NCBI GenBank assembly: GCA_022567555.1
Contig: JADFGT010000004.1
Location: forward strand, 18,392 to 63,222
Source of the DNA: Armatimonadota bacterium
GTDB taxonomy: Bacteria > Armatimonadota > Fimbriimonadia > Fimbriimonadales > ATM1
DNA: 44,831 nt
Direction: 5' to 3'
Shown piece after piece: positions 19,035-36,318 of the stretch (positions within the stretch are counted from its first letter, which is position 1; the number at the start of each line of letters is the position of its first letter). A model generated the notes under the pieces. It did not search any database. It saw nothing but the letters and a program-made list of their open reading frames with translations, and was not told where the DNA came from. A program made the position numbers and the translations under genes.

Positions 19035-19040
19035 TAGAAT
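19035..19040 (+). promoter_or_regulatory. Probable -10 box of tRNA-Val, also serving the integrase
   Basis: TAGAAT 12 bp before the tRNA. The -35 region is not consensus. Because the integrase start lies only 70 bp after the tRNA, read-through from this promoter is the only evident source of integrase mRNA in the integrated state. Confidence 0.45.
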
Positions 19041-19127: not shown

Positions 19128-19196
19128 GTGAACCCCAATTTGAACCTAAAACGGCCGGTTTTCCACACTTCGCGGAACCGCAAAGGAGAACCGAAA

Positions 19197-20129: not shown

Positions 20130-20348
20130 TCGGATGGTTGCACGCGGAGCCGCAGGGGACCACGTGCCGGCTCGGCGCGAGGGGAGGTTCTCGATCACTC
20201 TTGATCGTGAACAACACCCGTTCCGGATCACCCGAGTGAGCAGGCAGAGTCTCGACTGGAGACAAGCAGGAGAACCGGGACCGGAAGTCGAAGGGAGCCA
20301 TCTGGACTGATTGAATGACCGGTCCGCAAGAGGGGAATATAGAATATC

Positions 20349-21302
20349 ATGGCAATTCAACTTGTATCGAAGGAGCGGTTATTGAAAGGTTTGGCGAAGG
20401 TAGGACTCGCCATGCTCGCTGCCCCGTTCCTGCAAGGCGGATGCTTCTCTGGAGGGGACGGAGCGGGTGTGACGAATATCTGGTTCCAGTCGAACCGCGA
20501 CGGTGACTATGAGATATACCGTATGGACGCCAACGGTTCGAACGTTACGCAACTGACCGCCAACAGCGTTTTTGACATAGACCCCGCCGTGAGCCCCGGT
20601 GGGTCGAAGATTGCTTTCGTCAGGGACGTTCCGACTGGCGGTGCCTCTCCCTCCGGTGGTCCTACTTTGGAGGACGGCACTTATAGTCCGGATGGAAAGG
20701 TCACTGAAATCTTCATAATGGACGCGAACGGCACCAACGTGACGCAACTGACCAGCAACGGAGTGTTTAATGGACAGCCGTCGTTCAGCCCGAATGCCCA
20801 GGAGATTGTGTGGAATAGGAGTAGCGAGATCTGGAAGATGGATGCGGACGGGTCGAACCCGACTCAATTGACGAGTGGGTTCTCTGACCACGATCCGTCG
20901 TACAGTCCAGACGGAAGCAAGATCGCCTTCGTGAGGAACAGTGACATCTACGTGATGGACGCCGACGGCAACAACGTCACCCAGTTGACCAATACAGATA
21001 ACAACGATCATCCCTCTTGGTCACCGAGCGGAACCAAGATCGTGTTCGAGCGCAATCTTGGCAACAATGAGATCTACGTCATGAACGCCAACGGAAGCAA
21101 CAAGACTCAAATCACCAGCAATGGTGACAATAACTTCGATCCTGTCTACACACCGGATGGGAGAATGATAGTCTGGGAGAGGATCGCGCCAGGCGACGAT
21201 AACGACATCTGGATCATGCGAGCCGACGGGAGCAATCCGATGAACTTGACCAATGACGCGAGCAACAGGGACGAGTATCCGGCGGTGAGAGGTTTGCCGT
21301 AG
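20349..21302 (+). CDS. TolB-like PD40 beta-propeller lipoprotein
   Basis: 317 aa. The N-terminus is hydrophobic and ends in LQGGC, a plausible though imperfect lipobox with Cys near residue 33. Six repeats follow, each with the PD40 pattern: a D-x-D/N-G-S/T-N turn before T-Q-L-T, then the x-P-S-x-S-P-D-G-x-K-I-A-F core. TolB-type propellers bind partners or peptides at the membrane. Here the protein is probably anchored outside the cytoplasmic membrane. Its neighbours are another PD40 protein and an HtrA-like protease on the same strand. The GAGGGG before the start is about 15 nt away, which is long. The terminator at 21336 follows. Confidence 0.85.
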   Translation: MAIQLVSKERLLKGLAKVGLAMLAAPFLQGGCFSGGDGAGVTNIWFQSNRDGDYEIYRMDANGSNVTQLTANSVFDIDPAVSPGGSKIAFVRDVPTGGASPSGGPTLEDGTYSPDGKVTEIFIMDANGTNVTQLTSNGVFNGQPSFSPNAQEIVWNRSSEIWKMDADGSNPTQLTSGFSDHDPSYSPDGSKIAFVRNSDIYVMDADGNNVTQLTNTDNNDHPSWSPSGTKIVFERNLGNNEIYVMNANGSNKTQITSNGDNNFDPVYTPDGRMIVWERIAPGDDNDIWIMRADGSNPMNLTNDASNRDEYPAVRGLP

Positions 21303-21335
21303 CGTCCTGACTCGCACTCAGGCACGCTTCCTACA

Positions 21336-21366
21336 AGGGGTTCCCCGAAGTCGGGTAACCCTTTTC
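21336..21366 (+). terminator. Rho-independent terminator after the first PD40 gene
   Basis: GGGTT and CCCGA pair with TCGGG and AACCC around an AG loop with one mismatch, followed by CTTTT. It lies 34 bp after the stop at 21302. The rest of 21367-21538 contains a TAGAAT box at about 21464 that could start the next transcript. Confidence 0.65.
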
Positions 21367-21538
21367 CATCGGTGCGGGACCCGAAAACAGAGACGAAGTC
21401 AGCCTGTAGGGTGCCGATCCGTCCTGTCCCCGCTCCATAGAGGAGGTTTCCAGGCGAAGGGGTAGAATGTACTCCTGATTACGTTGGCGGCAGGGTTAGG
21501 CTCCTGCCTGGTCCTGTGCCTACGAATGGAGGCAAAGC

Positions 21539-22837
21539 ATGACCGCACTCTGTATGGCAGCAGCACTCTCGGCCATTTCTGCTACCCACGGTGGAGGGGT
21601 TTGGGAAGGCGGAAACCTGACGAGGATTGCGTTCGCAGGCAACGGTGGGATATGGACTATGAGGCTTGACACGACCGGGAGAACGCAAGTGACTTTCGGT
21701 CCTGACGCCAACCCTTCCTTCAACTCTGACGGCACCAGGATTGCGTTCACGACTTGGGATCCTAACACCCGCACAATCGATATTTACGCAATGAATGCGG
21801 ATGGTACCGATCAGATAAGGCTTACGAACATGGGAGACGCCGATGACCCCGAATGGAGTCCCGACGGTTCAAGAATTGCGTTTTTCCATGGCAGCGGCGG
21901 TACGGCTTCCTTTGATATCTATACGATGAACCCGACTGGTGGCAACGTCACCAGGATTACGAGATTCGACCGAGCGGAGATTGAGCCAAGTTGGAGTGGC
22001 GACTCTAACCGAATCGCATTCACTCACGACGGTGACATATATGTAATCAATGCTGACGGTACAGGTGAGACTCGCCTTACATCCGACCCAAGCAATGACC
22101 GCGAGCCCGCATTCTCCCCTGACGGAACCCTAATTTCCTTCTCCTCAGATCGTTCTGGCACCACTCAAATATGGATTATGAACTCTGATGGTAGCAATCA
22201 GCACAGGCTGACTTTCGGACCCATCGGACACCAATCTACCTTCACCCGCGACGGCGAGAAGATTATCTTCCAAGGGGACGGCTCCAACTTACACATGATG
22301 AACGTTGACGGCTCCGAACTCACGAGAATGACTTTCGGCGAGGGTGAGTCAGAACCGGACGTAGGACCGGTCGCCGCAGAGATTCTCGTGGATTCGCTTG
22401 CAGTTCTACGCGGTCTGGTGATCGCCGGTGGCCTTCAAGAGATACTCGTGAGTGATGACATGTATCTGTTCGTCAGACCGTGGTTTGTATTGACCACACA
22501 GGAATCCCCGGTGCAGGTTCGGGTGGAAGGTGTGTCCCCGTTCGAGAACATCACTGACCTGAGATTCGTCCTGGAGGCCGGGATTTCCATTCCGAACATC
22601 GGACAGAGCATTGACCTGTTCAACTTCCAAACGAATCAGTGGGAACAGATGGACACACGTCCCGGCACTCTCGGCGATTCGGTAGTAGAGGTCACGGTAT
22701 CTCTGGACCCCAGCCGTTTCGTGCAGCCGGGGACCGGTACCGTAAGAGCGCTTCTCCGCTGGAAGGAGTCCGGACCGATTCTGATTTACCCCTGGCACGC
22801 GCGAATTGACCAGGCCATCTGGTACGTTCTGAGGTAG
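21539..22837 (+). CDS. Exported PD40 beta-propeller protein
   Basis: 432 aa. ATG 21539 follows GGAGGCAAAGC. A signal peptide (CMAAALSAISATHG) is followed by six PD40 repeats with the D-x-D/N-G-T/S turn and SPDGSRIAF-type strands. A C-terminal beta domain of about 140 residues (GLVIAGGLQEILVSDDMYLF; VQVRVEGVSPFENI) ends in YPWHARIDQAIWYVLR. The same ending recurs as a relic at 24692-24739. It could be a sensor or substrate-binding partner of the neighbouring protease; that is inference. Confidence 0.85.
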   Translation: MTALCMAAALSAISATHGGGVWEGGNLTRIAFAGNGGIWTMRLDTTGRTQVTFGPDANPSFNSDGTRIAFTTWDPNTRTIDIYAMNADGTDQIRLTNMGDADDPEWSPDGSRIAFFHGSGGTASFDIYTMNPTGGNVTRITRFDRAEIEPSWSGDSNRIAFTHDGDIYVINADGTGETRLTSDPSNDREPAFSPDGTLISFSSDRSGTTQIWIMNSDGSNQHRLTFGPIGHQSTFTRDGEKIIFQGDGSNLHMMNVDGSELTRMTFGEGESEPDVGPVAAEILVDSLAVLRGLVIAGGLQEILVSDDMYLFVRPWFVLTTQESPVQVRVEGVSPFENITDLRFVLEAGISIPNIGQSIDLFNFQTNQWEQMDTRPGTLGDSVVEVTVSLDPSRFVQPGTGTVRALLRWKESGPILIYPWHARIDQAIWYVLR

Positions 22838-22925
22838 GCGCTCTCGTTTCGGTTCGGTGGCGGCACGGGTGTTCCGAAGGGTTGGCTCCGATTCGAGACT
22901 GACTGACCCACGTGAGCCGTACCTG

Positions 22926-22934
22926 TGATATACT
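22926..22934 (+). promoter_or_regulatory. Extended -10 promoter for the HtrA-like protease
   Basis: TGATATACT, an extended -10 (TGN) with TATACT at 22929-22934 and only a weak -35. It would start RNA near 22941, giving a leader of about 52 nt to the GTG at 22993. Confidence 0.5.
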
Positions 22935-22992
22935 GAAGTTCCACAGGGAGAGACAAGCACAGGGACGTAAAGGCAGGAAGGAGGGTAGCAAG

Positions 22993-24609
22993 GTGCGCCA
23001 CATCAATGCCAGGTCGGTCGGGGTAGCGCTTTTAGTGGCTGCGGTGTGCATCCGAGTCGCCGCACAGGAAGATCTGTCTGCGAAGCAGGTCTTTGAAGCC
23101 TCAAAGGACTCCATCGTCAAGGTCGAAACTGACAAAGTTATCGGCTCGGGATTCTTCATCAAGAACGGCGGTCTTGTTGCGACCTGCTACCATGTGATTG
23201 AGAATGCCGCCAAGATCGTGGTTACCGACGCGGATAAGTCTATTATGGAAGTCGAAGCCGTGTACTTCGATAAGGAAGCTGATGCGGCAATCCTGAAGCT
23301 ATCGGCGAAGTCATCCCGTCGGCCGCTTCCCATCGGCACGTACAGCGCCGTCTCCACAGGCGATGATGTTTTCGTCATTGGCTCACCACTCGGTGTGCTT
23401 GACCAGTCCCTTACGTCCGGCATTGTGAGCGCGAAACGAAAGGTAGCGGGGATTGAGCTCATTCAGTTCACGGCCGCCATTAGTGCAGGAAGTTCCGGAA
23501 GTCCAGTCATCAATAGCAAGGGTCAGGTGATTGGCTTCGTGAGCTTCAGTTTTGCTGCCGGGGAGTCGTTGAACATGGCAGTCAGTAGTACCTTTCTGGC
23601 GAGCTTGTTGACTGAGGAGCCTGTCCCTTTAGAAATCTTTGTTCAGACCGCAAAGCGAGCATCCGAAGAGGTAACTCCACCCTCGCCGCGAGAGCCTGCC
23701 AAGAGCAAGTCAGACGCAGCATTAAAAGTACGTGCGAGCGAGTCGTTCGCTGATTTCTTCGGCGAGATCGGCGACGTGTTTTTGAGGTGGCTTATCTGGT
23801 GGCAAAAAGACGGACATAGACAAGAGATATCTCCCAGTACGGTAACGAACAGATCTTTCGGGTACTATGACGAACTGACAAATGTTCTGCTACGATCGGA
23901 TCCATTCTTGACGGAAATCAGTGGATCTCCCTTATGGGACGCAGACCAGATTGAGGCGTTTTTTGAGTCTACGAAGGCTCTTAGGGTCATTGCGCTTGAG
24001 CATGCGGAAACCGAGAGTTATGCGTCAGTGGAGGCGCACTGGGGAACGAAAAAGTCACGGGACGCCGCGAACCAACGAATGCAAGAGTCGACCAGGCGCC
24101 TCAACGCCGCTTACAGCGCTTTCTACGATCGCTTCGGGGACAGAGACTGGTTCGACTGGAACAGCTTCCGAAGAAGGCTAAGTCCTCCGGTTTTTGCTTT
24201 TCTATTCGGCACATTAGGCGATGGCGTATTGCCAGACCCGCTCTTCAAAAGGGAGTGTTACGTAGGCTACGCTCCGTCTACTTCGCAATTGCGTACTGGC
24301 GACAGGATTACGGGGGTAGGCAGGTTGGGAAGTACCATGTACACGACCATAAATAACTGGCGGGACCTCGACCGGTTCTTTGAACGTAACCGCAGAGATC
24401 ACGGTGACTTGTATATCAATGTGCGATACCTACGTAGAGGGAGTTCTGGCGTAGCCAGCGTAGAAATACGAAAACACATTAATCTTCGCGTTCTTCATCG
24501 GCAGACCGGCCAATGCTCGATCGTTTGCGAGCCGATCGTCACTTCATCCCTCGGGAGCGGTCCCCCTCTTCTCCGCTGGTTTCCCATGATGACTCCCCAC
24601 CGACGATGA
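22993..24609 (+). CDS. HtrA/Do-like (S1C) serine protease with PDZ-like C-terminus
   Basis: 538 aa from GTG 22993, which has AAGGAGG at 8-nt spacing. The signal peptide ends near VAAQED. A trypsin-like domain has the full triad: H67 (TCYHVIE), D97 (EADAAILKL) and S168 (SSGSPV). The middle part (about residues 225-390) is unknown and rich in charged helices. A PDZ-like segment follows (SQLRTGDRITGVGRLGSTMY, then INVRYLRRG). HtrA proteins degrade or refold misfolded envelope proteins. Next to two PD40 propellers in a mobile element, a dedicated role is possible. The last roughly 25 residues (from about SSLGSG) lie in a patch of gene relics and may be an accidental replacement of the original end. 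Confidence 0.85.
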   Translation: MRHINARSVGVALLVAAVCIRVAAQEDLSAKQVFEASKDSIVKVETDKVIGSGFFIKNGGLVATCYHVIENAAKIVVTDADKSIMEVEAVYFDKEADAAILKLSAKSSRRPLPIGTYSAVSTGDDVFVIGSPLGVLDQSLTSGIVSAKRKVAGIELIQFTAAISAGSSGSPVINSKGQVIGFVSFSFAAGESLNMAVSSTFLASLLTEEPVPLEIFVQTAKRASEEVTPPSPREPAKSKSDAALKVRASESFADFFGEIGDVFLRWLIWWQKDGHRQEISPSTVTNRSFGYYDELTNVLLRSDPFLTEISGSPLWDADQIEAFFESTKALRVIALEHAETESYASVEAHWGTKKSRDAANQRMQESTRRLNAAYSAFYDRFGDRDWFDWNSFRRRLSPPVFAFLFGTLGDGVLPDPLFKRECYVGYAPSTSQLRTGDRITGVGRLGSTMYTTINNWRDLDRFFERNRRDHGDLYINVRYLRRGSSGVASVEIRKHINLRVLHRQTGQCSIVCEPIVTSSLGSGPPLLRWFPMMTPHRR

Positions 24610-24685
24610 CCGCGTGCGCACACGCCACTCGCGCATATACCATCGGTGATATTTCCGGCTTCGACGGAAGGAGACCGGACGACTA
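24544..24685 (-). pseudogene. Relic of a Zn-ribbon protein gene, C-terminal part
   Basis: The minus-strand frame reads RRSRKYHRWYMREWRVR. It matches RRSREYHRWYMRDWRAR in the intact protein at 25986-26234, and it runs to a TGA at 24544. The DNA 24621-24651 matches 26024-26054 at 30 of 31 bases. The N-terminal Cys pairs are missing. Confidence 0.65.
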
Positions 24686-24691
24686 CTGTCC

Positions 24692-24739
24692 TACCCCTGG
24701 TTGGCACGGATTGACCAGGCCGTCTGGTACGTTCTGAGG
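24692..24739 (+). pseudogene. Relic of a PD40 protein C-terminus
   Basis: Reads YPWLARIDQAVWYVLR, nearly the same as the last 16 residues of the PD40 protein ending at 22837, at both DNA and protein level, but without its stop codon. It is a leftover of a duplication or of a lost PD40 gene. Confidence 0.6.
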
Positions 24740-24807
24740 TTGGCAATTCAGGCCGTGCAGGGAGCCGAGGGGAAGCGGCTCAAGCATAAGCAAGACACAC
24801 AACGGAA

Positions 24808-25689
24808 CTAACCGAAGGTTGCGCCACCCGTAATTGCCTTTGCAATGTCTTCGTCGTCTCGCTGACGAAAATCGTTGAAACAACTCGAATCAAGGAACTC
24901 CTGCAATCTCCATGCCGGAACCACCCCCGCCATTCCCGTATTAGATTGCACAACATAGCCCTCCTGCACCGCTGTTTTGCCGTTCTTTTCCAGAACCGGA
25001 TCGTAAGTTTGGATGTGGCACCAGTCCACCCCCAAGAGCCACGGTCCCATCGGATAGTGCACGGGGTCGTACTCAAACATCTCCCGCTCCATCGGCCAGA
25101 AATAGACAAACACCGGGGAACCGCTATAGCCTGAAAGAGAGCGCATTTCAACCAGAAAACTCTCCTGCTCGATTCCGAGTGGGGTTGTAAGCGGTTCATC
25201 AGGCATCATGCTAATGTTGCCAAACCGCGCAGACGGCAGGTTCGCTTGCTTGCCATCATGTCCAATGAAACGGCCAACCATAAACACGTCGTCTCCTGCC
25301 CCTACGCCCATATCCTCAATGCGCTTACCCGTGATGAAGTGCTCTGTCCCCACGTGAACAAACTTCATCTTGGCATCGCTCATCCCCTCCAAGGGGAGAA
25401 CGGCCACGTCATCTCCGTCGGGATGTTGGTGCCAGTCATCGCACGCATACCCCTGTATGATTGTCCCACGGTCGGTTGCATTACATCTTATGACTGGCGA
25501 ATTGCCTAAGTTCCTATTCACGACATGGCCTGCCGTAACAGCATATGTGTGGTACCAGCCCTCATGCACTGCAGACCGCGTGGACGCAATGAAGCCTGTA
25601 CCGCCCGCTTTCTCCCCACTGTGAGCATCTGCCTCAGAGGGATAGAGGTAGATAGAGCAGTCAAGCGCCCAATTAGGAATACGCGGCAT
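24808..25689 (-). CDS. Trypsin-fold serine peptidase, second protease of the element
   Basis: 293 aa from ATG 25689 (MPRIPNWALDCSIYLYP). The frame is open to a GTG at 25809, but the extra 40 residues look like translated spacer. The triad is H55 (TAGHVV), D94 (DGDDVAVLPL) and S189 (GYSGSPVF). There is no signal peptide, so it is probably cytosolic, unlike the HtrA-like protein in the same element. Cytosolic trypsin-like domains on mobile elements are known from bacterial conflict systems, where they cut partner proteins; whether that applies here is inference. It is last in the minus-strand gene block. The bases 25690-25985 before it show no other gene. Confidence 0.8.
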   Translation of the reverse strand: MPRIPNWALDCSIYLYPSEADAHSGEKAGGTGFIASTRSAVHEGWYHTYAVTAGHVVNRNLGNSPVIRCNATDRGTIIQGYACDDWHQHPDGDDVAVLPLEGMSDAKMKFVHVGTEHFITGKRIEDMGVGAGDDVFMVGRFIGHDGKQANLPSARFGNISMMPDEPLTTPLGIEQESFLVEMRSLSGYSGSPVFVYFWPMEREMFEYDPVHYPMGPWLLGVDWCHIQTYDPVLEKNGKTAVQEGYVVQSNTGMAGVVPAWRLQEFLDSSCFNDFRQRDDEDIAKAITGGATFG

Positions 25690-25985
25690 AGCCTTCTTCC
25701 AAACGTAGTACGGTTCCCCGCGAAGGGAGTACCGTACTTGGTAACCGGAATATCGTGGATTATTACATGTTGTATTCAAACTGTGGTAAACCGCGCTGAA
25801 AGTACCCACTCTGACCCGTTGGGAAACTACTCGACCGTTGTCTCCTTTTGCTTCGCGGCCTGCCTGGGTCTGGGATTTGCCTTTGGCGACTCCGAAGCCG
25901 CCTCCTCAAATTTCAGAGGCCGCAGTGACGCAGGCGATATTCGCACGTGTGTGCCTGGGAGAGCCGACCAGTCGAACCACTCTGA

Positions 25986-26234
25986 TTATCCAGGTCTCTC
26001 AACATTTCCCAGGCGCTGCCGCGCACGCCAATCGCGCATATACCATCGGTGATACTCTCGGCTGCGCCGACCACGCCTGCGTTCCCGTACTCTGTCCCGA
26101 TTCCTCAGGTTGTACTCTCGTGACGCCTTTCTCCAGCACCCCATACAGGCAGAGCGGTAGCCGCTTGGAGCGCATATATCAGGGTAGAATTCCGTGAGCG
26201 GCAACTCCCTGCCGCACTTTGTACACCGCTTCAT
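25986..26234 (-). CDS. Small Zn-ribbon protein of mobile elements
   Basis: 82 aa from ATG 26234 (MKRCTKCGRELPLTEFYPD); an ATG at 26270 is also possible, and neither has a clear ribosome binding site. Two Cys pairs (CTKC and CMGC, 20 residues apart) form a likely zinc site. A basic, Arg-rich C-terminal helix follows. The pattern CxxC, elxxFy, gyrsxCxxC is common in small phage proteins related to HNH or recombination-endonuclease-VII-type nucleases, but the catalytic HNH part is absent here. Perhaps DNA-binding. A relic of a second copy lies at 24544-24685. Confidence 0.6.
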   Translation of the reverse strand: MKRCTKCGRELPLTEFYPDICAPSGYRSACMGCWRKASREYNLRNRDRVRERRRGRRSREYHRWYMRDWRARQRLGNVERPG

Positions 26235-26381
26235 ATCTTCAAGAAAACCCTCACGTTTGTGTGTGTCCATGTGTTCTGTGTGGAATCCATCCGAAACGTC
26301 CGTCTCTGTCGTCTACAGAGGAGCAGGAACGGCATTCTCGGGGTCATTTAGAGTCGCCTATACGTCAGCGTGGACCCCTGT

Positions 26382-27611
26382 TCACGCCGACCATGAGCAC
26401 TGGCCGTCTGCGGACCCCGCAATGTGAAAGAGAGTCGTCCTAAGATGCTTCCCGGCGGGTATCAAGACTCGATTCCTAATGAGCCACTGAATCCCCTTGC
26501 CTGCTTGCTTTTGAGACACACCGCACCACACGGAAGCAAACCGCCACGAGAACGGCGAGGGGTCGCCGGGAGTGTGTATCCACTTGCAGCCGAGCAGGAA
26601 TCGGAACCCCTCACACACCATTTGCGCGGACCACGGCGCATCCCCAGGAAGTTGGACCTCCGGCACGGGAGCAAGCGGTAGGACGCGTGCCTCCACCAGC
26701 AGCCGAATCCCCCACACGGCCAATTCAGGCCTTCGGTCGCGTAATCGGACTGTGTGTCCATACGCTTGCGCCGCTCTCACCTCCGCGAGCGTGTAGAACT
26801 CCACTCCTTCTCGTCGGTGAAAGTCGTGGTACACGATCACGCCGTTGTCGCCGCGATAGAGACTCCCCGATGGGTTCTTTTCCTGATGACCGGGGAGGAC
26901 ACAGCAGAAGGCATGACCGAGCCTGCGTTCTTTGATTCCGAGAACAGGCGCGACCTTCCACACGATTTCCTCTGTGCTGTAGAGGGAGCGCAGTGCGTCG
27001 CCTGTGATGGTTCCTGTCTCGCATACTCCGGAACGGGAAGCGAGTAATGAATATTCTCTTACTTGCTTCCGTGTCCATGTATCACTGCTACCGGTCCCCA
27101 CATCGGGTAAATAAGCATGCGGCAGATCATCAATCTCCACCTGCAAAGGTGTTAGGAAGTCGCTCCAGGTGTATCGTTCCCCATTCGGATGGATACTCGG
27201 CGGGAGGATCGCCAATTGACCGTACAGCAAGTCCCCCCAATCGAACTTCTTGACCCGGACTCGCTCCGAGCCGGTGACCTGATAGAACGAGCGGAACCCC
27301 CGAGGTGTAATAACCTGCGGTGACGGAGGAACTGGAAGAGAGAAATTCTCCGAGTAATCCACGTCCACTGCGATAAGATTCCCCGATGCCTTTCCCGTGA
27401 TTACCGCGACTCCGCAGTTCGGGTCCCTGGCGAACCAGTCCCTTATTTCACGCTCGTTTGTCGGCTTGTCGCGCCTTGCGGTCCAGCTGCCGTTCGTGAG
27501 TAGTTTCGTGTACGGATGCTTCGTTCCAGGCTTCATAGGAACGAGTCTCCAGCCTCGGTTCGCAAGCAACGTCAGTTCTACAATCTGGTCGGTCTTGGTG
27601 GTAGTCCTCAC
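26382..27611 (-). CDS. Bifunctional primase/polymerase (Prim-Pol) of the element
   Basis: 409 aa. The N-terminal Prim-Pol domain has the catalytic Asp pair D83/D85 (LIAVDVDYSENF) and the PPSIHPNGERYTW motif with H141. A degenerate zinc-ribbon-like middle follows (FCCVLPGHQEKNPSGSLYR, then YHDFHRR), as in many phage and plasmid primases. The C-terminus (SVWCGVSQKQAGKGIQWLI) looks like a winged helix. The role is priming and possibly extending DNA on the excised element. It overlaps the nuclease gene upstream by 4 bp (ATGA type), hence translational coupling. No helicase domain is seen, so a host helicase would be needed. Confidence 0.88.
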   Translation of the reverse strand: MRTTTKTDQIVELTLLANRGWRLVPMKPGTKHPYTKLLTNGSWTARRDKPTNEREIRDWFARDPNCGVAVITGKASGNLIAVDVDYSENFSLPVPPSPQVITPRGFRSFYQVTGSERVRVKKFDWGDLLYGQLAILPPSIHPNGERYTWSDFLTPLQVEIDDLPHAYLPDVGTGSSDTWTRKQVREYSLLASRSGVCETGTITGDALRSLYSTEEIVWKVAPVLGIKERRLGHAFCCVLPGHQEKNPSGSLYRGDNGVIVYHDFHRREGVEFYTLAEVRAAQAYGHTVRLRDRRPELAVWGIRLLVEARVLPLAPVPEVQLPGDAPWSAQMVCEGFRFLLGCKWIHTPGDPSPFSWRFASVWCGVSQKQAGKGIQWLIRNRVLIPAGKHLRTTLFHIAGSADGQCSWSA

Positions 27612-28111
27612 GGCTTCTCACCCCTAAGCCGTCTCTGAGTCTCGAACCAATGACTCGGGTCTATCGCCTGTCCTGCTCCGCCGAGTACGCGGACCAATTC
27701 ATCTTGCGAAATCGCACAGGGTTCGTATCCAACTCGGCCGAACCACATTTCGTCAGAGTTATCTGGAGACGTTCCACTCAGGCGAAGCGTGAAGACGCCT
27801 GGAAACCGGATCGGACGCTTGCCACGTAGAGTGTCGAATTGCTCCCCGTCCACACGCCGGAGCGCCTGATCCAGCAAATGTAACAGTTCCTGCTGAAACC
27901 GGTTTACTCTTCCGCTGCGGGTCTTGACTTCCACAGGGAAAAGGGTCGCGTCGCCGAAGCGAAATACGCAGGCGTCAATGTCCGAAATGTAGATTGAAAA
28001 GTCCCGAGAGTCGAGCAGCGGGTGGTTTCTTGTCCACGCCGACCAGGGAGTTTCCTCCCCAAACACCCGCTTACGTGTTCGGCTCCCGGACGCTGTGTAA
28101 GACTTATCCAA
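27608..28111 (-). CDS. PD-(D/E)XK-type nuclease
   Basis: 167 aa from TTG 28111, which follows AAAGGTGA at 6 nt; a GTG at 28141 would add ten residues. The core shows the fold's signature: D46 in ISDIDACVF, then a beta hairpin and E61-x-K63 in FPVEVKTRSG. This is the D...ExK active site of Holliday-junction-resolvase and restriction-like nucleases. The rest has no family I recognise. Coupled to the primase, it is probably part of DNA replication or processing of the element. Confidence 0.65.
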   Translation of the reverse strand: MDKSYTASGSRTRKRVFGEETPWSAWTRNHPLLDSRDFSIYISDIDACVFRFGDATLFPVEVKTRSGRVNRFQQELLHLLDQALRRVDGEQFDTLRGKRPIRFPGVFTLRLSGTSPDNSDEMWFGRVGYEPCAISQDELVRVLGGAGQAIDPSHWFETQRRLRGEKP

Positions 28112-28230
28112 TTGTGAATCACCTTTCTGGCGGCACGCCACCCCTCAAGTCCCGGCAGGTGCCGCAGTGAGATAGGAGCGGCTTATCGCCACCCCTTCAC
28201 AACTACATCAGTGGGGATTTGCGAGAAATC

Positions 28231-28262
28231 GGGGGTTTTGGGGGTATTTGCGGGGGACGGGG
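28231..28262 (+). other. G-quadruplex-forming motif
   Basis: Four G runs (28231-28235, 28240-28244, 28252-28256, 28259-28262) with loops of 4, 7 and 2 bases. It fits the G3+N1-7 rule. It sits between the sigma-like gene and the nuclease gene, on the non-coding strand of that block, and the mRNA would carry the C-rich form. Confidence 0.8.
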
Positions 28263-28278
28263 TGACGTTTTCACGTCA
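28263..28278 (+). promoter_or_regulatory. Perfect inverted repeat next to the G-quadruplex motif
   Basis: TGACGT-TTTC-ACGTCA, 6-bp arms. A candidate protein-binding site or RNA hairpin just downstream of the sigma-like gene. Confidence 0.5.
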
Positions 28279-28307
28279 ACGGCCTCCCCTGTGTCCGGAA
28301 GTGAGAC

Positions 28308-29465
28308 CTATCGCCTTGCCAGTTCAACCAGCGCGTCCCTCACCGGCATCGGCTCATCGAAGGCTCGGAAGATGAGGTCCTTCGCCTTAACCTTGGCGAG
28401 CATCACCTCTACCTCGTCATCGGTCAATCCCTTGGCTAAGCGCGGCTCGCGGTGGACTACTATGCGCAGGCGTCGCTTCGCGTCCTCATGCAAGTCTGCC
28501 TGAGCCTTATCGCATACCAGTCGAAAGATAGCGGTCTCGTCGTTGGGGTCCTGGCCTCTCTCTCTAAGGTCAATTGCGGCGGCCAGTGCGCGCCAGGAAT
28601 ACTTCTTGTTCCAACTGCGAAACAATGGAACGAAGACGACGTAGTACCTGTCCTGCTGGGTGTCCCAGGCCTCCCAAGGTTCCCGATTCTCGCTCAGCGC
28701 ATATAGACGGTCGCTGTCCCGTTCGCACACGAGAAATCCCTTTCCCTTCAGTTCGTGAAACTTCTTGAGGAGTTCGTCCCGGTCGAGGCGTAGCCGCCTC
28801 TGAATCGTCAGTCTCGTTCGGTCCCACCTTATCTCTTTGACAACGGCTTTCTGCGATTCACTCAATTCCCGCCACGCCTTGCTTTCAAAATACCAAAGCA
28901 TGGCGTTGGCAATCGCTTGTGTAAATCGTTCACAAACGTCAAACAAGTGCTCATCGAAATCTTGCGGGTCACCGCCTCCGAATGTGATGAAAAAGCCGTA
29001 ACCCCTCCGGCGCCTTACAAGATACATCATCGTATCTATCCGGATGAATTCTCTGAGAATAGGGTATTTCACCTCAAATTGCCACCAACCAATCTTTCGG
29101 GGCAATCCGCCTATGGGTCGCTCGCCTTCGTAAAGCCAAACGTATCGGCGTTTGGCCGCGATCTTGCGGCGCTCTTGCAGCGCAAAGTCCAGTCCGGCAA
29201 GAATCTTCGCGCGGATCTCGTGCTCTTGCTGAAAGAACTCTTGGCACGCGTACTTGACCGTCATGCTGGCCCAGGTAGTGAGCATCCCCTTGCGTTCGTC
29301 AAACGGGTTCTTGAGCGCGCGCAGAATTGCAATGCCGTGCACGTCCTCTTTATCATCTTTGGCAAGGATTCTGCCAAACTTGTACATGGGGACGTACTTT
29401 AGTGCGTGGTCTATCGCCTCCAGGTGGCTCTGTCGGAGTTCTGGCGGCATATCTCTACCGTTCAT
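28308..29465 (-). CDS. Sigma-70 region-2-like protein of the element
   Basis: 385 aa from ATG 29465; a GTG at 29492 is open upstream. Residues about 30-75 match the pattern of sigma region 2. An acidic EDV is followed by a helix, then NPFDERKG and MLTTWASMTVKYACQEFFQQE, like the FDP-x-rG-x-F-x-twa signature that binds core RNA polymerase and melts the -10 box. A long helical rest follows with several charged, paired segments (ESQKAVVKEIRWDRTRLTI reads like a region-4 or helix-turn-helix candidate). I infer a divergent sigma factor or a phage-type regulator. It is first in the minus-strand block and could switch on the genes behind it. Confidence 0.5.
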   Translation of the reverse strand: MNGRDMPPELRQSHLEAIDHALKYVPMYKFGRILAKDDKEDVHGIAILRALKNPFDERKGMLTTWASMTVKYACQEFFQQEHEIRAKILAGLDFALQERRKIAAKRRYVWLYEGERPIGGLPRKIGWWQFEVKYPILREFIRIDTMMYLVRRRRGYGFFITFGGGDPQDFDEHLFDVCERFTQAIANAMLWYFESKAWRELSESQKAVVKEIRWDRTRLTIQRRLRLDRDELLKKFHELKGKGFLVCERDSDRLYALSENREPWEAWDTQQDRYYVVFVPLFRSWNKKYSWRALAAAIDLRERGQDPNDETAIFRLVCDKAQADLHEDAKRRLRIVVHREPRLAKGLTDDEVEVMLAKVKAKDLIFRAFDEPMPVRDALVELARR

Positions 29466-29710
29466 GGCGCTTCCGGTTCCATGGTGACCCACAGGGCTAG
29501 AGGCTCCCGTTCGGCGTATCGGGAGCCTCGTCTATCTTCCATCACAGGGGACCGGAATCCTGCTCGGAGGACAGAGTGCGGCCGGGTTCTCCCGCGCACG
29601 AGGCCGGTCCGTGGGTCGTAGGGTGCCATACCGGTGTAACCTCCTGTTTCCGACGTAAGACCCCTCCTGCAAACCCCTCGGTCTGTCCTAACACCGCCTC
29701 TAATTCTCAC

Positions 29711-29785
29711 CGTATTTCAGCACCAAAGTAGCGGCCGCTAAGCCGAGGGTTTCCGTCCGTGTTTCAGCATCAAAGTCACGGCCGC
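29711..29785 (+). repeat. Two iteron-like 28-bp repeats
   Basis: 29711-29738 and 29758-29785 are the same length with about four to five mismatches. Both read cgt-ttcag-ca-caaagt and end in cggccgc. Confidence 0.6.
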
Positions 29786-30157
29786 GGAAACAGCCGTATG
29801 AGGGACCGTAAACCAGGTACGAATCTACGGCCGTAAGACTTCCCGGTTTTCCCGGTCTACGTGTGCGCGAAACGGCGGCCTCCGTCGGCGCATGACCGGC
29901 GAATCCCCTACGTGTGCGGAAACCCCGAATCGGCCTCCAAGTCGCTATCCTTTGAGAGATCCCCCGTCCCCCGTGGGGGATGGTGTGGGGGCCTCGAAAG
30001 ACCGTCTCCCCGGGTAGACCTTTCAACCCCTGCAGGACGCCGGCCGCAATACCCCTTCTGCACCGCTACAGGCGGCCTTTCCCTGCGTTTTATTGAGTTA
30101 CCCACTTTCCAGAACACCACCCTGACCGTTTGAGGGCCAGTTTGAGGCCTTCAGCCT

Positions 30158-30178
30158 GCACAAACGCCGTGTTTGTGC
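30158..30178 (+). other. Perfect hairpin, 8-bp stem
   Basis: GCACAAAC-GCCGT-GTTTGTGC. No U-run follows, so a terminator is unlikely; it is more likely an origin or protein-binding structure. Confidence 0.5.
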
Positions 30179-30503
30179 TTACCTGAGAGATCAGGGAGAG
30201 GCGCCTCCCGCGCGTATGCATATATTTCAGAAATGGGACTCCTTGTTTACTAACACAATCGAGGGTCGTTTTTAGAAATCTAATACAAGACTGGGACCCC
30301 TATTCGTCGGTCCGTATTGAGGGAAGCGGGACTCCTCTCCCGCGAGAGATCGAGGCCGTGGATGGACCCCCCCAGGATAACACACCAATCTCGGAATTTT
30401 ATCCTCCTCTTCGCTTTCGTCTCCATTCTGCTATCATTCGGACACAATACAGGACAATCAGAATTTATGCAGACTGAGTGCGCGTTGCGCAAAGGAGGAA
30501 TCG

Positions 30504-31019
30504 GTGCGACGAATTCGATATTTAGTGGCGATGAGTCTCGACGGGTACATCGCCGGGCCGCACGGGGAGGCCGACTGGATCATCACGGATCCAGAAATTG
30601 ACTTCGGTGACATCTATGCACAGTTCGACACGATTCTCGTAGGCCGCAGGACTTTCGAGCTCATGGTACGGACCGGGCGCGCGACGATGCCAGGAATGAA
30701 GACCTTTGTGTTCTCCACCACTCTACGCCAACCGGACTATCCGGACGTCACCGTCGTTGGAGAGAACACCGAGCAGACGGTGGCCGCGATGCGTGCAGCG
30801 TCGGGCAAGGACATTTGGCTGTTTGGTGGAGGCAATCTGTTTCGTAGCCTTCTTGAGGCTCGCCTGGTGGATGCTGTGGAAGTCGCGGTTATTCCGGTCT
30901 TGTTAGGCAGGGGGATCTCGCAACTGCCGCCTCCTTCGAAGCAGACCACGCTACAATTGACTGGGCACCGGATTTACAAGACGGGCATTGTCAATCTGGA
31001 GTACGCCGTTAGCACATAG
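30504..31019 (+). CDS. Dihydrofolate-reductase-like (RibD C-terminal domain) protein
   Basis: 171 aa; the GTG start at 30504 follows AAAGGAGG at about 6 nt. The fold shows RRIRYLVAMSLDGYIAG at the start, the NADPH-site GRRTFELM and KDIWLFGGGNLFRSLLEA, and a DAVEVAVIPVLLGRG segment: the family of YyaP/YwjB-type NADPH reductases related to DHFR and RibD. Substrate unknown. Such proteins sometimes give antifolate tolerance, but it is not a classic FolA. It stands alone between two copies of a short repeat (about 30330-30370 and 31105-31140), like a cargo cassette. Confidence 0.9.
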   Translation: MRRIRYLVAMSLDGYIAGPHGEADWIITDPEIDFGDIYAQFDTILVGRRTFELMVRTGRATMPGMKTFVFSTTLRQPDYPDVTVVGENTEQTVAAMRAASGKDIWLFGGGNLFRSLLEARLVDAVEVAVIPVLLGRGISQLPPPSKQTTLQLTGHRIYKTGIVNLEYAVST

Positions 31020-31142
31020 GCTGCCTAATTACGGTATGCAGCTGAGTCCGTAGGCGTGCGTGTGCAAGTATGATTTCGGCGGTTCCAGCGACACTCCAGG
31101 CCTGTTTCCCGCGAGGGATCGAGGCCGTGGGGGGACTCCACA

Positions 31143-31250
31143 GTAGGGGACCTCTACCCCGGGGGGTCAAAAGGAGGGTCCGCAACTAACACAGGAAAAC
31201 ATATCGGAATAGTCGGCACGTCTCCCTCGTAGCGGACCCCGGCCGGGGGG
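31143..31250 (+). repeat. Intergenic repeat, copy A
   Basis: About 108 bp that match 34483-34591 at roughly three of four bases by eye, beginning gtagggg and ending cgtctccctcgta and a ccggcc-gggggg run. A CTAAC half-site lies at 31186-31190. No gene falls in 31020-31299. Confidence 0.65.
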
Positions 31251-31299
31251 ATGGCGCCGGGGATCTGATTTCGGAGGCAGGGTAGGCTCCCATTTACAC

Positions 31300-32112
31300 A
31301 TGCTTCGATTGGGAACGTCGTCGTGGACTGCTCAAGGATGGGAGAGAGCCTTCTACCCGCCTGAAACACCGCAGCGTGACTACCTCCGGCACTACGCGAC
31401 AAAATTCGATACAGTAGAGATAGACGCGACATTTTACGCGATCCCGTCTCGAACGACTGTTGACGGATGGAGAACCAAAACCCCTCCCAATTTCACGTTT
31501 GCCGCGAAGGTCCCGAAGGTCATCACTCACGAAAAGATGCTTGTTGACTGCGAAAGGGAACTCGGAGTATTCATAGAAGTCATGTCCAGACTCGGCACGA
31601 AACTCGGTCCGCTCCTGTTCCAGTTCCGCTACTTCCGCAAAGGAGAATTGGAACTGTCCGAGTTTTTGGATCGCCTTTGTCCTGTCCTGGATCATGTACC
31701 GGAAGGGGTGCGGGTTGCGGTGGAGGTACGGAACAAGAAGTGGCTTGCGCCGGAGTTATTGACGGCACTCTCGGAACGGAATATGGCGCTTGCTCTGGTT
31801 GACCATCCATACATGCCTTATGCTTCTGAGTACCTGGAGCGCGGGAAGGAACTCATCACAGCGGACTTCACCTTCATTCGACTAATCGGACACCGTCAAA
31901 AGACCGAGCAGAAACTGGCTGATGAACTTGGCGAAGTCAGTTTCGAGCGCAGCGTCATAGATCGCTCACGTGAGTTAGCCTCCTGGTCCGAACTGATTCG
32001 CTCTTTAGACCATGACCGCTTTGCGCTGTTCGCTTACGTCAACAACCACTACTCCGGCTTCGCGCCGGACGACATCCGGAGGCTGATGGACCTGGTGAAA
32101 AGCTCCGAATGA
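31300..32112 (+). CDS. DUF72 (YecE-like) family protein
   Basis: 270 aa, TIM-barrel-like. The N-terminus has the family pattern LRLGTSSWTAQGWERAFYP, then LRHYATKFDTVEIDATFYA and the FAAKVPKVITHEK segment. The biochemical role of this widespread family is not settled. The start ATG at 31300 lacks a good ribosome binding site. It may be co-transcribed with the oxidase gene 118 bp downstream. It lies in the segment bounded by repeat copies A and B. Confidence 0.9.
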   Translation: MLRLGTSSWTAQGWERAFYPPETPQRDYLRHYATKFDTVEIDATFYAIPSRTTVDGWRTKTPPNFTFAAKVPKVITHEKMLVDCERELGVFIEVMSRLGTKLGPLLFQFRYFRKGELELSEFLDRLCPVLDHVPEGVRVAVEVRNKKWLAPELLTALSERNMALALVDHPYMPYASEYLERGKELITADFTFIRLIGHRQKTEQKLADELGEVSFERSVIDRSRELASWSELIRSLDHDRFALFAYVNNHYSGFAPDDIRRLMDLVKSSE

Positions 32113-32230
32113 CGGCACACACTCAGACGTGGCCGCCGCGTTGCTTCGAGGAGATGTCATGTGAACAGAATGACCAGGTGCCGCAGGATCGGAAGTATAT
32201 CGCTCGGGCTCCGGATTCGCTTGAACCAAA

Positions 32231-33388
32231 ATGAACGACCCACCAGAGGAAGCTTCGCGTAAGAGTACTCCAGAACAATCTGGAAGTAGACCCGACCCTG
32301 ACCGCATGGATCGGGCCGTCTGTCTTGCAGATTACGAGATTCTTGCTCGCAAGTGTCTCCAACATATGGCCTACGAATACGTCGTCGGAGGAGCAGCGGA
32401 TGAGATCACCCTACAGGCTAATCGACAGGCATTCGACCGAATCAGGTTGGAGCAGCGCGTTCTTGTGGATGTTTCTAAAATTGATACGCGTCTGACACTA
32501 TTTGGACAGCAACTGGAGTTTCCAATTGTGCTGGCACCGACTGCGTTCCACTGCCTCATCCAAACTGAGGGTGAATTGGCGACCGTGCGCGGAGCCAATG
32601 CCGCCGAAATCACGCTCGTGGTTAGCTCCTTGGCGAATGTCACGATTGAAGCAATTGCTGCCGAGGCCACACGGCCGCTTTGGTTCCAGCTCTATGTGCA
32701 ACCGGACCGTGGATTCACGCGTGCTCTCGTACAGCGAGCAGAAGCAGCGGGTTATCAAACTATTTGCGTGACGGTGGATACTCCGGTATTTGGGGCACGA
32801 AACCGCGAAGCTCGTGCACAGTTGAAGTTTCCGACAGGCATGGAACCTGTAAACTTGAGGGGCCTGGAGCTTCAGCACGGTACCGGATGGATAGGATCGG
32901 GAGTGGGGGACATCTATTCACCCGTATTAGATGCTGCGCTCACGTGGAAGGACATCGAGTGGTTGCGTTCTTTTGTGCAAATACCGGTTGTACTGAAAGG
33001 GATTACGGTAGCCGAGGATGCTGAAATCGCTGTCAAGGCGGGAGTTGACGGACTGATTGTGTCAAACCACGGGGCGCGTAATCTCGACACCTCGCCGGCG
33101 ACTATAGATACATTGCCGCGGGTCGTGGCCACAGTCGCCGGTCGCATTCCGGTCATGATGGACGGAGGTGTGCGCCGTGGCACCGACGTATTGAAGGCGC
33201 TGGCGCTAGGAGCGGATGCAGTACAAATTGGACGGCCATATCTTTTCGGACTCGCCGTGAACGGGTCTGACGGCGTCAAGCAGGTAGTGGACATCCTTCG
33301 GAGAGAGTTCGAAATGGCAATGGCGCTGACAGGAAGAACTTCGCTCGCCGAAATTGACGAGTCCGTTCTATGGCGTGATACCATCTGA
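32231..33388 (+). CDS. FMN-dependent alpha-hydroxyacid oxidase/dehydrogenase
   Basis: 385 aa TIM-barrel flavoprotein of the glycolate/lactate oxidase family, oxidising 2-hydroxyacids to 2-oxoacids. It shows FPIVLAPTAF (FMN site), WFQLYVQPDRG, the active-site SNHGARNLD with the catalytic His and a substrate-binding Arg, and the phosphate-binding MDGGVRRGTDVLKALALGAD. The usual SNHGGRQLDG reads SNHGARNLDTS, a small change near the active site. The first roughly 25 residues are polar and extra. Substrate is not predictable; lactate-type enzymes are the nearest by pattern. It could be an oxidase or a quinone-linked dehydrogenase. Confidence 0.92.
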   Translation: MNDPPEEASRKSTPEQSGSRPDPDRMDRAVCLADYEILARKCLQHMAYEYVVGGAADEITLQANRQAFDRIRLEQRVLVDVSKIDTRLTLFGQQLEFPIVLAPTAFHCLIQTEGELATVRGANAAEITLVVSSLANVTIEAIAAEATRPLWFQLYVQPDRGFTRALVQRAEAAGYQTICVTVDTPVFGARNREARAQLKFPTGMEPVNLRGLELQHGTGWIGSGVGDIYSPVLDAALTWKDIEWLRSFVQIPVVLKGITVAEDAEIAVKAGVDGLIVSNHGARNLDTSPATIDTLPRVVATVAGRIPVMMDGGVRRGTDVLKALALGADAVQIGRPYLFGLAVNGSDGVKQVVDILRREFEMAMALTGRTSLAEIDESVLWRDTI

Positions 33389-33738
33389 CCGGCTGGATTG
33401 GATATACAAGTGCGGCTTCCGGTTGTGGCGAGCCTACGCACACGGAAAGCTGAGATCGGTCTCCCAGTAGCTATTCCACGAAAAAAACCCCGCCGGCCGG
33501 GAGGGTGGTGTCTGTCACGACCTGCGGGGCGATCTCAAGAGATTTGGATCTCAGCACCCATTGTATCTCGATCGGGGAAGGCCGTCAACTGCGAAATGTA
33601 CCAGGATCAAGTTGAAAGAGCGAGACTAAGACGGTGCAGGTCGTCACGGCCGCCGCCGAGTGAGACGCTGGGATAGCATAGACAGAACGACTGCCGGGAT
33701 CTCCTGGCAGTCGTCTCTTCGAAAGGAGGTCGGGACAG
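33389..33738. other. Gene-free 350-bp stretch between convergent genes
   Basis: It contains a 9-bp perfect hairpin at 33687-33714 (ACGACTGCC/GGCAGTCGT), probably a terminator for one or both directions though without a strong U-run. On the minus strand a GC-rich stem is followed by seven T (33481-33512), a candidate terminator for the PEP-CTERM gene. Confidence 0.4.
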
Positions 33739-34323
33739 TTACGTCCGTCGCCTGCGGCGTGCCAACAGCGCCACTCCGGCTCCGAGTACCAGAAGTGTTG
33801 CCGGTTCCGGGACCAAAGTGCGGCTGAACTGAACAACCCGCCATGGCTGTTGAGGATTACCCGTCGCAAGAATGTAGCGCGTCTGATAGTGCCACTCGTC
33901 GAGCAGTAAGGTGCCTGTCAAGTCGGCTCGGTAGGACATATTGTGTACTGACCCGTCAACAGGCAAGTCGCTGCTGTCAGGAATCGGATCCGCCGGGTTC
34001 GCCAGTTCGGCGGATTCCAGCAACACAAAACCGTCGCGGTGGCCTGCATGAACCCAGCCGGGAGGAAGGCTAAGATTGGTCACTGCCGCAGGCCGCATAG
34101 GTGAAATTTTCAGGTAGTAGAAATCCAGGAAGGCAGGGTCACCATTTGCAGGATCGTAGCCAGAGGTATCAATCTCAATTGAAACGTCAAATAGGCTTCC
34201 GCCTGCGTCCGTTACAGTAACCTCGTAGGACGTACCAAATGGGTCTGTATCGAACAGCAGGAATGCCTCGCTGGGAACGGAACCTGCGGCCACCGCCAGT
34301 CCACAGATGATCAAGCGCAACAT
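33739..34323 (-). CDS. PEP-CTERM sorting-domain protein
   Basis: 194 aa from ATG 34323, which follows AAAGGAGA at 8 nt. The signal peptide ends near PSEAFLL. A beta-rich mature domain follows. The C-terminus is the full tripartite PEP-CTERM signal: the VPEPATL motif, a short hydrophobic helix and RRRRRT. Such proteins are cut and sorted by an exosortase (EpsH/XrtA), which is not in the window, so the element relies on the host for sorting. Role of the mature part unknown; a surface or matrix protein is typical. Confidence 0.9.
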   Translation of the reverse strand: MLRLIICGLAVAAGSVPSEAFLLFDTDPFGTSYEVTVTDAGGSLFDVSIEIDTSGYDPANGDPAFLDFYYLKISPMRPAAVTNLSLPPGWVHAGHRDGFVLLESAELANPADPIPDSSDLPVDGSVHNMSYRADLTGTLLLDEWHYQTRYILATGNPQQPWRVVQFSRTLVPEPATLLVLGAGVALLARRRRRT

Positions 34324-34482
34324 GTCAACAATCTCCTTTCCAACAAATCTTACTTCTGAATCGAACCGCGCAACAGCCAGCGACTGTGAAAGTCTGAACA
34401 TTATATTCGATATCCACCATGGATTCCCGAGAAGCGAAAAAACCTGTCAATAGTACGGGGCTGCCTAAGTTGACCTCCCGAA

Positions 34483-34591
34483 GTAGGGGTTCCTCACCCC
34501 CAGAGGTCAATAGGAGGGTCGGTAACTAACAGCAAAAGGATATTGGCATCCTCGGCGCGTCTCCCTCGTATCGAACCCCCGGCCTGGGGGG
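34483..34591 (+). repeat. Intergenic repeat, copy B
   Basis: Diverged partner of 31143-31250 in the same orientation. A CTAAC half-site is at 34526-34530. The two copies bound the DUF72, oxidase and PEP-CTERM segment. Confidence 0.65.
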
Positions 34592-34610
34592 TGCGTACCC
34601 CACGTCGCTG

Positions 34611-34877
34611 TCACGCCTTACGGGTAGGCGACGTGCTTCTCTTGTGCGCCTTCCGCCTCGCTCGCTTCCGCCAGGTCACCTGGAGCCTGACGCTTCCCCC
34701 CAATGCGCTAACGAGGCGCTCCAGGACCGCCAGGGAGATACCCTCTCTCCCCGACTCCAGATTGGCGATCCGGGAGCGATTCACCCCAAGGCGATCCGCA
34801 AGATCGGCCTGGGTCCACCCGAGCGCCTTCCGCCTCTCGTAAACCGTCTGTCGAAGGGTCTTCTGCCGGTCAATCAG
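34611..34877 (-). CDS. XRE-family helix-turn-helix regulator with a damaged or unusual start
   Basis: About 88 aa. A clear Cro/CI-type HTH is present: LRQTVYERRKALGWTQADLA, then RLGVNRSRIANLESG, followed by LERLVSALGGSVRLQVTW. This C-terminal strand is often seen in antitoxin-type XRE proteins (HigA- or HipB-like). No toxin partner is adjacent. No ATG, GTG or TTG is available before the HTH; only CTG 34877 or ATT 34874 are in frame after a TAA at 34887-34889. An ATG at 34893-34891 lies just upstream in another frame, and removing one T from the TTTT run would join it to the HTH frame (MLTFLLIDRQKT). So the gene is either recently frameshifted or uses a rare start. A palindrome (34886-34901) covers that ATG. 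Confidence 0.65.
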   Translation of the reverse strand: MIDRQKTLRQTVYERRKALGWTQADLADRLGVNRSRIANLESGREGISLAVLERLVSALGGSVRLQVTWRKRARRKAHKRSTSPTRKA

Positions 34878-34885
34878 GAGAAAAG

Positions 34886-34901
34886 GTTAGCATTTTCTAA
34901 C
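34886..34901 (+). promoter_or_regulatory. Operator-like palindrome
   Basis: GTTAG-CATTTT-CTAAC, perfect 5-bp arms, between the XRE gene start and the -35 box of the outward promoter 7 bp away. A natural binding site for the XRE protein, controlling both itself and the promoter. Confidence 0.6.
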
Positions 34902-34907
34902 AAACAC

Positions 34908-34936
34908 TTGACATTCGCCGTAATTTGGCCTATTAT
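34908..34936 (+). promoter_or_regulatory. Consensus-like sigma-70 promoter pointing out of the element
   Basis: TTGACA (34908-34913), a spacer of exactly 17 bp, then TATTAT (34931-34936). RNA would start near 34943 and run across the attachment site. In the circular form it would then reach the integrase GTG, about 150 nt away. Confidence 0.8.
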
Positions 34937-34984
34937 GTATAGGCGTTTTCGCAGGTTCAAGACCCACCGCGCCAGGTTCAAACG

Positions 34985-35051
34985 GCTCAGTTGGCAGAGC
35001 ACTACAATGACACTGTAGGGGTCGCTGGTTCAAGTCCAGTACCGCCCACCA
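34985..35051 (+). repeat. attR: 67-bp repeat of tRNA-Val 3' part
   Basis: Identical to 19061-19127. The 5' acceptor strand is missing (the bases before it are GTTCAAACG), so it cannot fold as a tRNA. The stretch 35052-35298 after it has no gene I trust. Confidence 0.97.
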
Positions 35052-35298: not shown

Positions 35299-36318
35299 AT
35301 GCGCGGTATGCGGTCGCTTCTCGCCCTTGCGTTATGCGTGGCGGCCGTTGCCTGCGCGGACGAACTGGTTCTGACGAACGGCGACAGATTGACCGGGATG
35401 TTGGAGAGCATCGTGAGCGGGAAGGTCACGTTCCTATCGGACCTTTTGGGCAAAGTGACAGTCGAGGTGAATAACGTCCAGACGTTTTCTACCGACGCGC
35501 CGGCCGAAATCCACCTTCGCGACGGACGCGTCATCCGAGGCGTCATCTCCGCTTCCGGCGCCGGATGGATCGCCGTACACACGCCCGGCGCGACGCCGGA
35601 AAGAGTCGCAATTGAAGATATCGCCTCGCTGAACCCGCCGCCCAAGCCGAAACCGCGATGGAAGGGGGACGTGAGCGCCGGCATGACCTTCGTGCGAAGC
35701 GACGCGGACACTGAGAACGTCAACATAAGCCTAACGCTCGACCGCGCCGGGGAGAAGGACCGCATTACGTTTCACTCGGTCTATCTTTACGGACGGCAGC
35801 GTGACCCCGCGACCGGAACGAACATCACGACCCAAGCCACGTGGTATGCAACCGGTGAGTATAAGTATCTCCTTCCGAATCGGTTCTTTGTCTATGCGCA
35901 CAGCCGGGCCGAGCAGGACCGCATTCGGAGCCTGGACATGAGGCTCATCGCCGGCTTGGGTGGGGGCTACCGGTGGGTGCAGCGTCCCGGTTTCAGCCTG
36001 TTCACCGAGGCGGGGCTCTCCTGGCTGCGAGAAGAATTCTCCGGTTCGCCCGGAAACGAAAGTGTTGCCGGCCAGTTCGCTTACAATGTGTCTGTCGAGT
36101 TGGGGGATCGAATGCAACTTGTGCACAAGCTGTCCGTTTATCCGAACCTGCAGGACATCGGCGACTACTTCCTTACGACGGAGTTGGACGTGCGGACAAC
36201 GCTGACTTCCAGCCTGTTCCTTAATCTGAAACTGGTGTTCGACTTCGATTCGACTCCCGCGCCCGGCGCGCGGAAGGACAGCATAAAGTACCTGTTGGGC
36301 GTCGGCCTGAGGTTTTAG
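35299..36318 (+). CDS. DUF481 outer-membrane protein
   Basis: 339 aa from ATG 35299; ATG 35308 is equally possible and the frame is open to 35143. A signal peptide ends near VACADEL. Residues about 20-110 form a small beta domain with twice-repeated LTNGDRLTGML and HLRDGRVIRGVI strands, as in other secreted proteins with an adhesion-like RNP/SH3-like fold. A DUF481 beta barrel follows (VSAGMTFVRSDADTENVNIS, ending YLLGVGLRF). DUF481 proteins (YdiY-like, 'salt-induced outer membrane protein') have no settled function. It is the first host gene after the element, and the outward promoter of the element may reach it. Confidence 0.8.
   Translation: MRGMRSLLALALCVAAVACADELVLTNGDRLTGMLESIVSGKVTFLSDLLGKVTVEVNNVQTFSTDAPAEIHLRDGRVIRGVISASGAGWIAVHTPGATPERVAIEDIASLNPPPKPKPRWKGDVSAGMTFVRSDADTENVNISLTLDRAGEKDRITFHSVYLYGRQRDPATGTNITTQATWYATGEYKYLLPNRFFVYAHSRAEQDRIRSLDMRLIAGLGGGYRWVQRPGFSLFTEAGLSWLREEFSGSPGNESVAGQFAYNVSVELGDRMQLVHKLSVYPNLQDIGDYFLTTELDVRTTLTSSLFLNLKLVFDFDSTPAPGARKDSIKYLLGVGLRF

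Follow-up and report, generated by a model that had tools for sequence, protein, structure and literature searches.

A right-end promoter that may drive the integrase of a small tRNA-Val element only after circularisation: a further candidate for a known arrangement

ICEclc is a large conjugative element that resides in tRNA-Gly and has a weak integrase promoter of its own. Excision of ICEclc brings the strong outward-facing promoter of the other end before the integrase gene intB13 (PMC2704930, PMC6561031, PMC2892462). A study of ICEKp1 determined that the integrated element has int transcribed from the tRNA-Asn promoter and that a sigma-70 promoter at the 3' end drives int after excision, and this switch was tested by 5'-RACE and reporters (PMC13023037). 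Leader stem-loops and a tRNA terminator that is displaced by the insertion were also described for ICEKp1 (PMC13023037).

In this report we examine a 15.9-kb integrative element that is inserted in tRNA-Val(GAC) at positions 19061-35051 of a 44.8-kb stretch of DNA from an Armatimonadota bacterium (the window; 44,831 nucleotides). The element is bounded by a 67-bp direct repeat of the tRNA 3' end without a single mismatch, and ARAGORN and Rfam assign the attL copy to the complete tRNA and find the attR copy without the first nine bases. The tyrosine integrase gene and the adjoining tRNA attachment site lie on the same strand, as expected of elements of the ICEclc/ICEKp1 type. No conjugation genes (relaxase, coupling protein, type IV secretion system) were found among the main proteins of the element that were scanned with Pfam, NCBIfam and PADLOC, and a viral contig search returned nothing beyond one weak match. 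A second tRNA-Val prediction at 19183-19275 on the minus strand was discarded as a false positive without Rfam support. The features of the element are collected in Table 1.

Table 1. Features of the element and their positions in the window
Feature	Position	Strand	Basis or remark
tRNA-Val -10-like box TAGAAT	19034-19039 (approximate)	+	comparison with same-family genomes
tRNA-Val (GAC), complete; integration target; left att copy from 19061	19052-19127	+	ARAGORN, Rfam RF00005
attL repeat, 67 bp	19061-19127	+	identical to attR
TTGAACCT, candidate arm-type site, inverted relative to right-end copies	19140-19147	+	end enrichment
Leader hairpin able to pair the integrase ribosome-binding site	19156-19194	+	weak statistical support
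Tyrosine recombinase/integrase gene, 310 aa, GTG start	19197-20129	+	Pfam PF00589, E 8e-33
Prim-Pol (primase/polymerase) protein; core gene common to sibling	26382-27611	-	PF09250, E 9e-21
HTH (XRE/HipB-like) open frame without ATG, GTG or TTG upstream of the domain	34614-34886	-	profile and ORF inspection
Palindrome GTTAG-N6-CTAAC beside promoter	34886-34901		near chance expectation
Outward sigma-70-type promoter TTGACA-17-TATTAT; predicted start near 34943	34908-34936	+	sequence scoring
Opposite-strand promoter TTGAAC-17-CATAAT overlapping the outward one; faces HTH frame; predicted start near 34925	34932-34960	-	promoter scan
AGGTTCAA, two direct copies (34953, 34974) 21 bp apart; candidate arm-type sites	34953-34981	+	end enrichment
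attR repeat	34985-35051	+	tRNA-Val fragment without first nine bases; repeat comparison, Rfam

The same genome holds a sibling element of the same layout, in which an 88%-identical integrase lies behind tRNA-Val(CAC). Its integrase end is on contig C140 (8418-9490 in genome G000) and its right end is on contig C69 (4330-4404), where a second copy of the tRNA-Val(CAC) end is found; the two contigs overlap by 101 bp within the same Prim-Pol gene, and the sibling is thus about 7.7 kb long. The sibling shares with the window element the PD40, Cys-rich and Prim-Pol core genes (the last 87% identical in DNA), the candidate arm motifs, the tRNA-Val target and a right-end promoter candidate, but it differs in the anticodon of its target and in its promoter hexamers and lacks the HTH frame and the cargo at 31-34 kb. 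The two integrases (window 19197-20126 and L010) are 99% identical over residues 101-310 and 64% identical over residues 1-100 (95% versus 67% in DNA), a mosaic pattern that looks like an exchange of the catalytic part from one element to another. In the window, a 110-bp repeat with 80% identity between its copies (31142-31250 and 34482-34591) brackets a 3.3-kb cargo block that holds a DUF72-like frame, an LldD-like dehydrogenase and a PEP-CTERM protein. This repeat matches one place near the right end of the sibling, and cargo was apparently gained at the right end of the window element. Further repeats similar to it occur at 22761/24666 and 24612/26013. Two trypsin-like proteins (22912-24609 and 24808-25809) weakly match the PADLOC protease-type defence models RT-Protease_XI and PDC-S45 and are possibly defence cargo.

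The integrase is XerC/XerD-like but scores under the curated cut-offs of these proteins. Its GTG start at 19197 has an AGGAGA ribosome site and aligns with the ATG of the sibling integrase, both of which support it; it lies 70 bp from the end of the attachment site at 19127, in agreement with an earlier reading made from the sequence alone (the sequence-only reading). No strong separate promoter, which would have spoken against that reading, was seen by sequence in 19128-19197, where the best score is 5.3 as opposed to 17.1 at the right end. In six further same-family genomes the gene rex is the neighbour of tRNA-Val(GAC), and a box of the TAGAAT/TACAAT/TAAACT/TAGACT type lies 7-14 nt upstream of the orthologous tRNA-Val in all six; the tRNA promoter therefore belongs to the chromosome. 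A clean empty site was not found, as the right flank of the window has no match in the same-family genomes that share the rex/tRNA-Val neighbourhood. There is no predicted intrinsic terminator between tRNA-Val and the integrase. Since no comparable promoter lies between attL and the integrase, read-through from tRNA-Val would be the sole evident source of integrase in the integrated state. The earlier claim that the integrated gene can be read only from the tRNA-Val promoter is, with the conserved -10 box, plausible. The leader hairpin over the ribosome site is present in both siblings, but shuffled sequences match its pairing in 8-14% of cases, so that it is only a hint.

At the right end, TTGACA (34908-34913) and TATTAT (34931-34936) lie on the plus strand with a spacer of 17 nt, 48 bp inside the element, and are directed outward across the attachment site. 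The site agrees with the consensus at 11 of 12 positions and is the only one of this quality in the window, for which first-order Markov sequences based on the whole window give an average expectation of 0.05. When the 150 bp next to the attachment site were randomised 20,000 times at matched composition, 7 of the resulting sequences contained such a site, and the weighted score falls in the top 0.5% of random 150-mers from the locus. The exact TTGACA-17-TATTAT occurs at only two sites in the 2.95-Mb genome; when one mismatch is allowed there are nine sites, whereas the reversed pattern gives none, so the host appears to use promoters of this type. The sequence-only reading had described a near-perfect sigma-70 promoter that points outward at the right end, and as a sequence this site is confirmed and is rare by every control.

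In the integrated element tRNA-Val immediately precedes the integrase, and run-on transcripts from the tRNA promoter would be the only ones to reach the gene. Recombination between attL and attR upon excision would bring the outward promoter to a distance of about 185 bp before the integrase start (48 bp, the 67-bp attachment site and 69 bp), and in the circle the promoter would read straight into the gene. The circle would then have a larger supply of integrase, which would promote re-integration in the manner of ICEclc and ICEKp1. Beside the anatomy, the recurrence in the sibling and the rarity of the promoter, which are observed, we infer the activity of the promoter, the excision and the direction of the effect. 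That the right-end promoter drives the integrase only after circularisation is our best reading of the sequence and is probably correct.

The right end of the sibling carries TTGCAA-17-TATACT 41 bp from attR, offset by about 8-10 bp from the promoter of the window in the alignment. The weighted score of this candidate has p=0.0125 on local composition, and its 9/12 match is reached by 14% of composition-matched shuffles on simple counting. Between attL and its integrase the sibling has no promoter score above 6.6. The right-end promoter of the sibling is weaker than that of the window and is supportive, not decisive, evidence for expression of the integrase from the circle. Beyond its attR the sibling has a hairpin with a T-rich stretch after it. 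This resembles the tRNA terminator, moved there when the element inserted, and the right flank also contains a tRNA gene on the opposite strand. To the right of attR in the window we recognised no tRNA terminator, though a candidate is visible in the sibling.

The first search, of 151 genomes, recovered integrases with 33-49% identity from 24 genomes other than this one, and a phylum-wide search added more. For 25 elements, both siblings included, the right end was definable. A strong outward promoter is present at three of these: the window element, the sibling and L085, an element in tRNA-Pro from a different family (integrase 37% identical) in which TTGATA-17-TACAAT (p=0.0025 on local composition) lies 54 bp from attR. 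The remaining 22 have weak outward candidates at most, and a Fisher combination of all elements other than that of the window gives p=0.017 (local composition). An outward promoter at the right end is thus recurrent among the sequences compared, not universal, and as a general rule it was rejected. A TTGTCA-17-TGTTGT-like match that is repeated at right ends of one family of relatives (f8) overlaps the end motif of CACAACAT type and cannot credibly be taken for a promoter. Relatives of this integrase target many tRNAs (L077, L078, L082, L089, L122; L090, L091, L093, L094, L121, L123), and some have complete tRNA genes at both ends of the element. The tRNA is antiparallel to the integrase in some relatives, so that tRNA read-through is unable to supply integrase there.

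The ends of the elements also carry candidate arm-type recombinase sites. The motif AGGTTCAA/TTGAACCT occurs at a density of 1.85 per kb at element ends versus 0.061 per kb inside, a difference of about 30 times, and is inverted about the attachment site in the window and in the sibling, where AGGTTCAAACG adjoins attR and TTGAACCT adjoins attL. The loci behind this observation are 19128-19160 and 34950-34984 of the window together with L076, L085, L094, L108, L078, L024 and L010. The motif is similar to GGTTCAA of the tRNA T-loop. In the f8 relatives CACAACAT/CACAAGAT and their complements replace it at the ends with about 70-fold enrichment. In a genome of the same family (G001, L129 2239-2265), the candidate arm motif TTTTGAACCTGA lies behind tRNA-Val(GAC) with no close integrase and may be what is left of a related element that used this site.

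The outward promoter overlaps one on the opposite strand, and this raises the question of which transcript the site mainly serves. The site could be a bidirectional promoter for a leftward transcript that encodes the HTH protein, with outward activity as a by-product of a symmetric -10 box. The predicted starts are 18 bp apart, which is typical of bidirectional promoters in bacteria (PMC10268837), and inward promoters at the right ends of the relatives are at least as common as outward ones (9/25 at p<0.05). However, the outward side is far stronger (17.1 versus 11.7), and the HTH frame, which resembles HipB/Y4mF-type regulators with a score under the curated cut-off, has no ribosome site and no ATG, GTG or TTG before the HTH domain, so that it may be a regulator that has decayed or starts at a non-canonical codon. 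In the sibling an HTH gene is missing at this place while a promoter candidate is kept, and we regard this explanation as unlikely. The sequence-only reading had added repressor control through the palindrome beside the promoter. Palindromes with five-bp arms are expected by chance at about 1.25 per 100 bp, a second one (GCCTAT-5-ATAGGC) is found at 34928-34944, and the first is missing from the sibling; it was dismissed as an operator. With a palindrome at chance level, an HTH frame without a normal start and both absent from the sibling, repressor control is unsupported.

It is also conceivable that the promoter is a relic or a chance match in an immobile element, and that any expression of the integrase is tied to that of tRNA-Val. 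Most relatives have no strong outward promoter, the HTH frame looks decayed and cargo was apparently gained beside the right end, all of which would fit such an element. The local chance by counting is only about 0.04%, though, the attachment repeats are identical and the integrase is intact, as is its closest relative in the genome, and we consider a relic unlikely, slightly more so than a bidirectional promoter that mainly serves the HTH transcript. The constitutive outward promoter of ICEclc reads into the flank when that element is integrated (PMC6561031), and the promoter in the window could similarly work in the integrated state, either by reading across attR into the flanking host gene (start at about 35299-35308) or by making a tRNA-fragment RNA. 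No terminator-like site was seen between 34936 and 35300. In the sibling, by contrast, attR is followed by the terminator-like hairpin and the opposite-strand tRNA gene, so no host gene would be read, and outward transcription is expected from a promoter that serves the circle anyway; such a role in the integrated state is the least probable of these explanations. Slightly less remote, but still improbable, is a broader scheme for the Prim-Pol family in which circularisation would activate the integrase by means of a symmetric bidirectional promoter whose leftward output is a regulator transcript, while the leader hairpin over the ribosome site would limit how much the tRNA run-on message is translated. 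One 60-bp site would then couple integration state, replication phase and regulator level. The reading in which circularisation joins the promoter of one end to the integrase of the other fits the sequence, is repeated in the sibling and L085 and matches ICEclc and ICEKp1; the original proposal is supported in part, and its repressor control by the palindrome is not supported.

The window element resembles ICEKp1 of Klebsiella pneumoniae in having int beside a tRNA on the same strand and a far-end sigma-70 promoter that would reach int across attP, and the displaced tRNA terminator of ICEKp1 has a candidate counterpart in the sibling. ICEKp1 is conjugative and experimentally tested, whereas the window element is about 16 kb long, carries a Prim-Pol gene, has no conjugation gene recognised among the scanned proteins and is known from its sequence. 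The likeness to Pcirc/intB13 of ICEclc from Pseudomonas knackmussii lies in the right-end outward promoter, which is constitutive in ICEclc and is put before the integrase on circularisation; no counterpart of the proximal weak integrase promoter of ICEclc was recognised in the window element. If the promoter is active, keeping an integrase apart from its promoter suggests a simple and recurring solution that favours re-integration. The mechanism itself is already known from experiments on ICEclc and ICEKp1, and the window element appears to be a convincing but ordinary new example from a distant lineage. It would extend circle-dependent integrase promoters from the proteobacterial conjugative elements cited here to a small, non-conjugative-looking Prim-Pol family.
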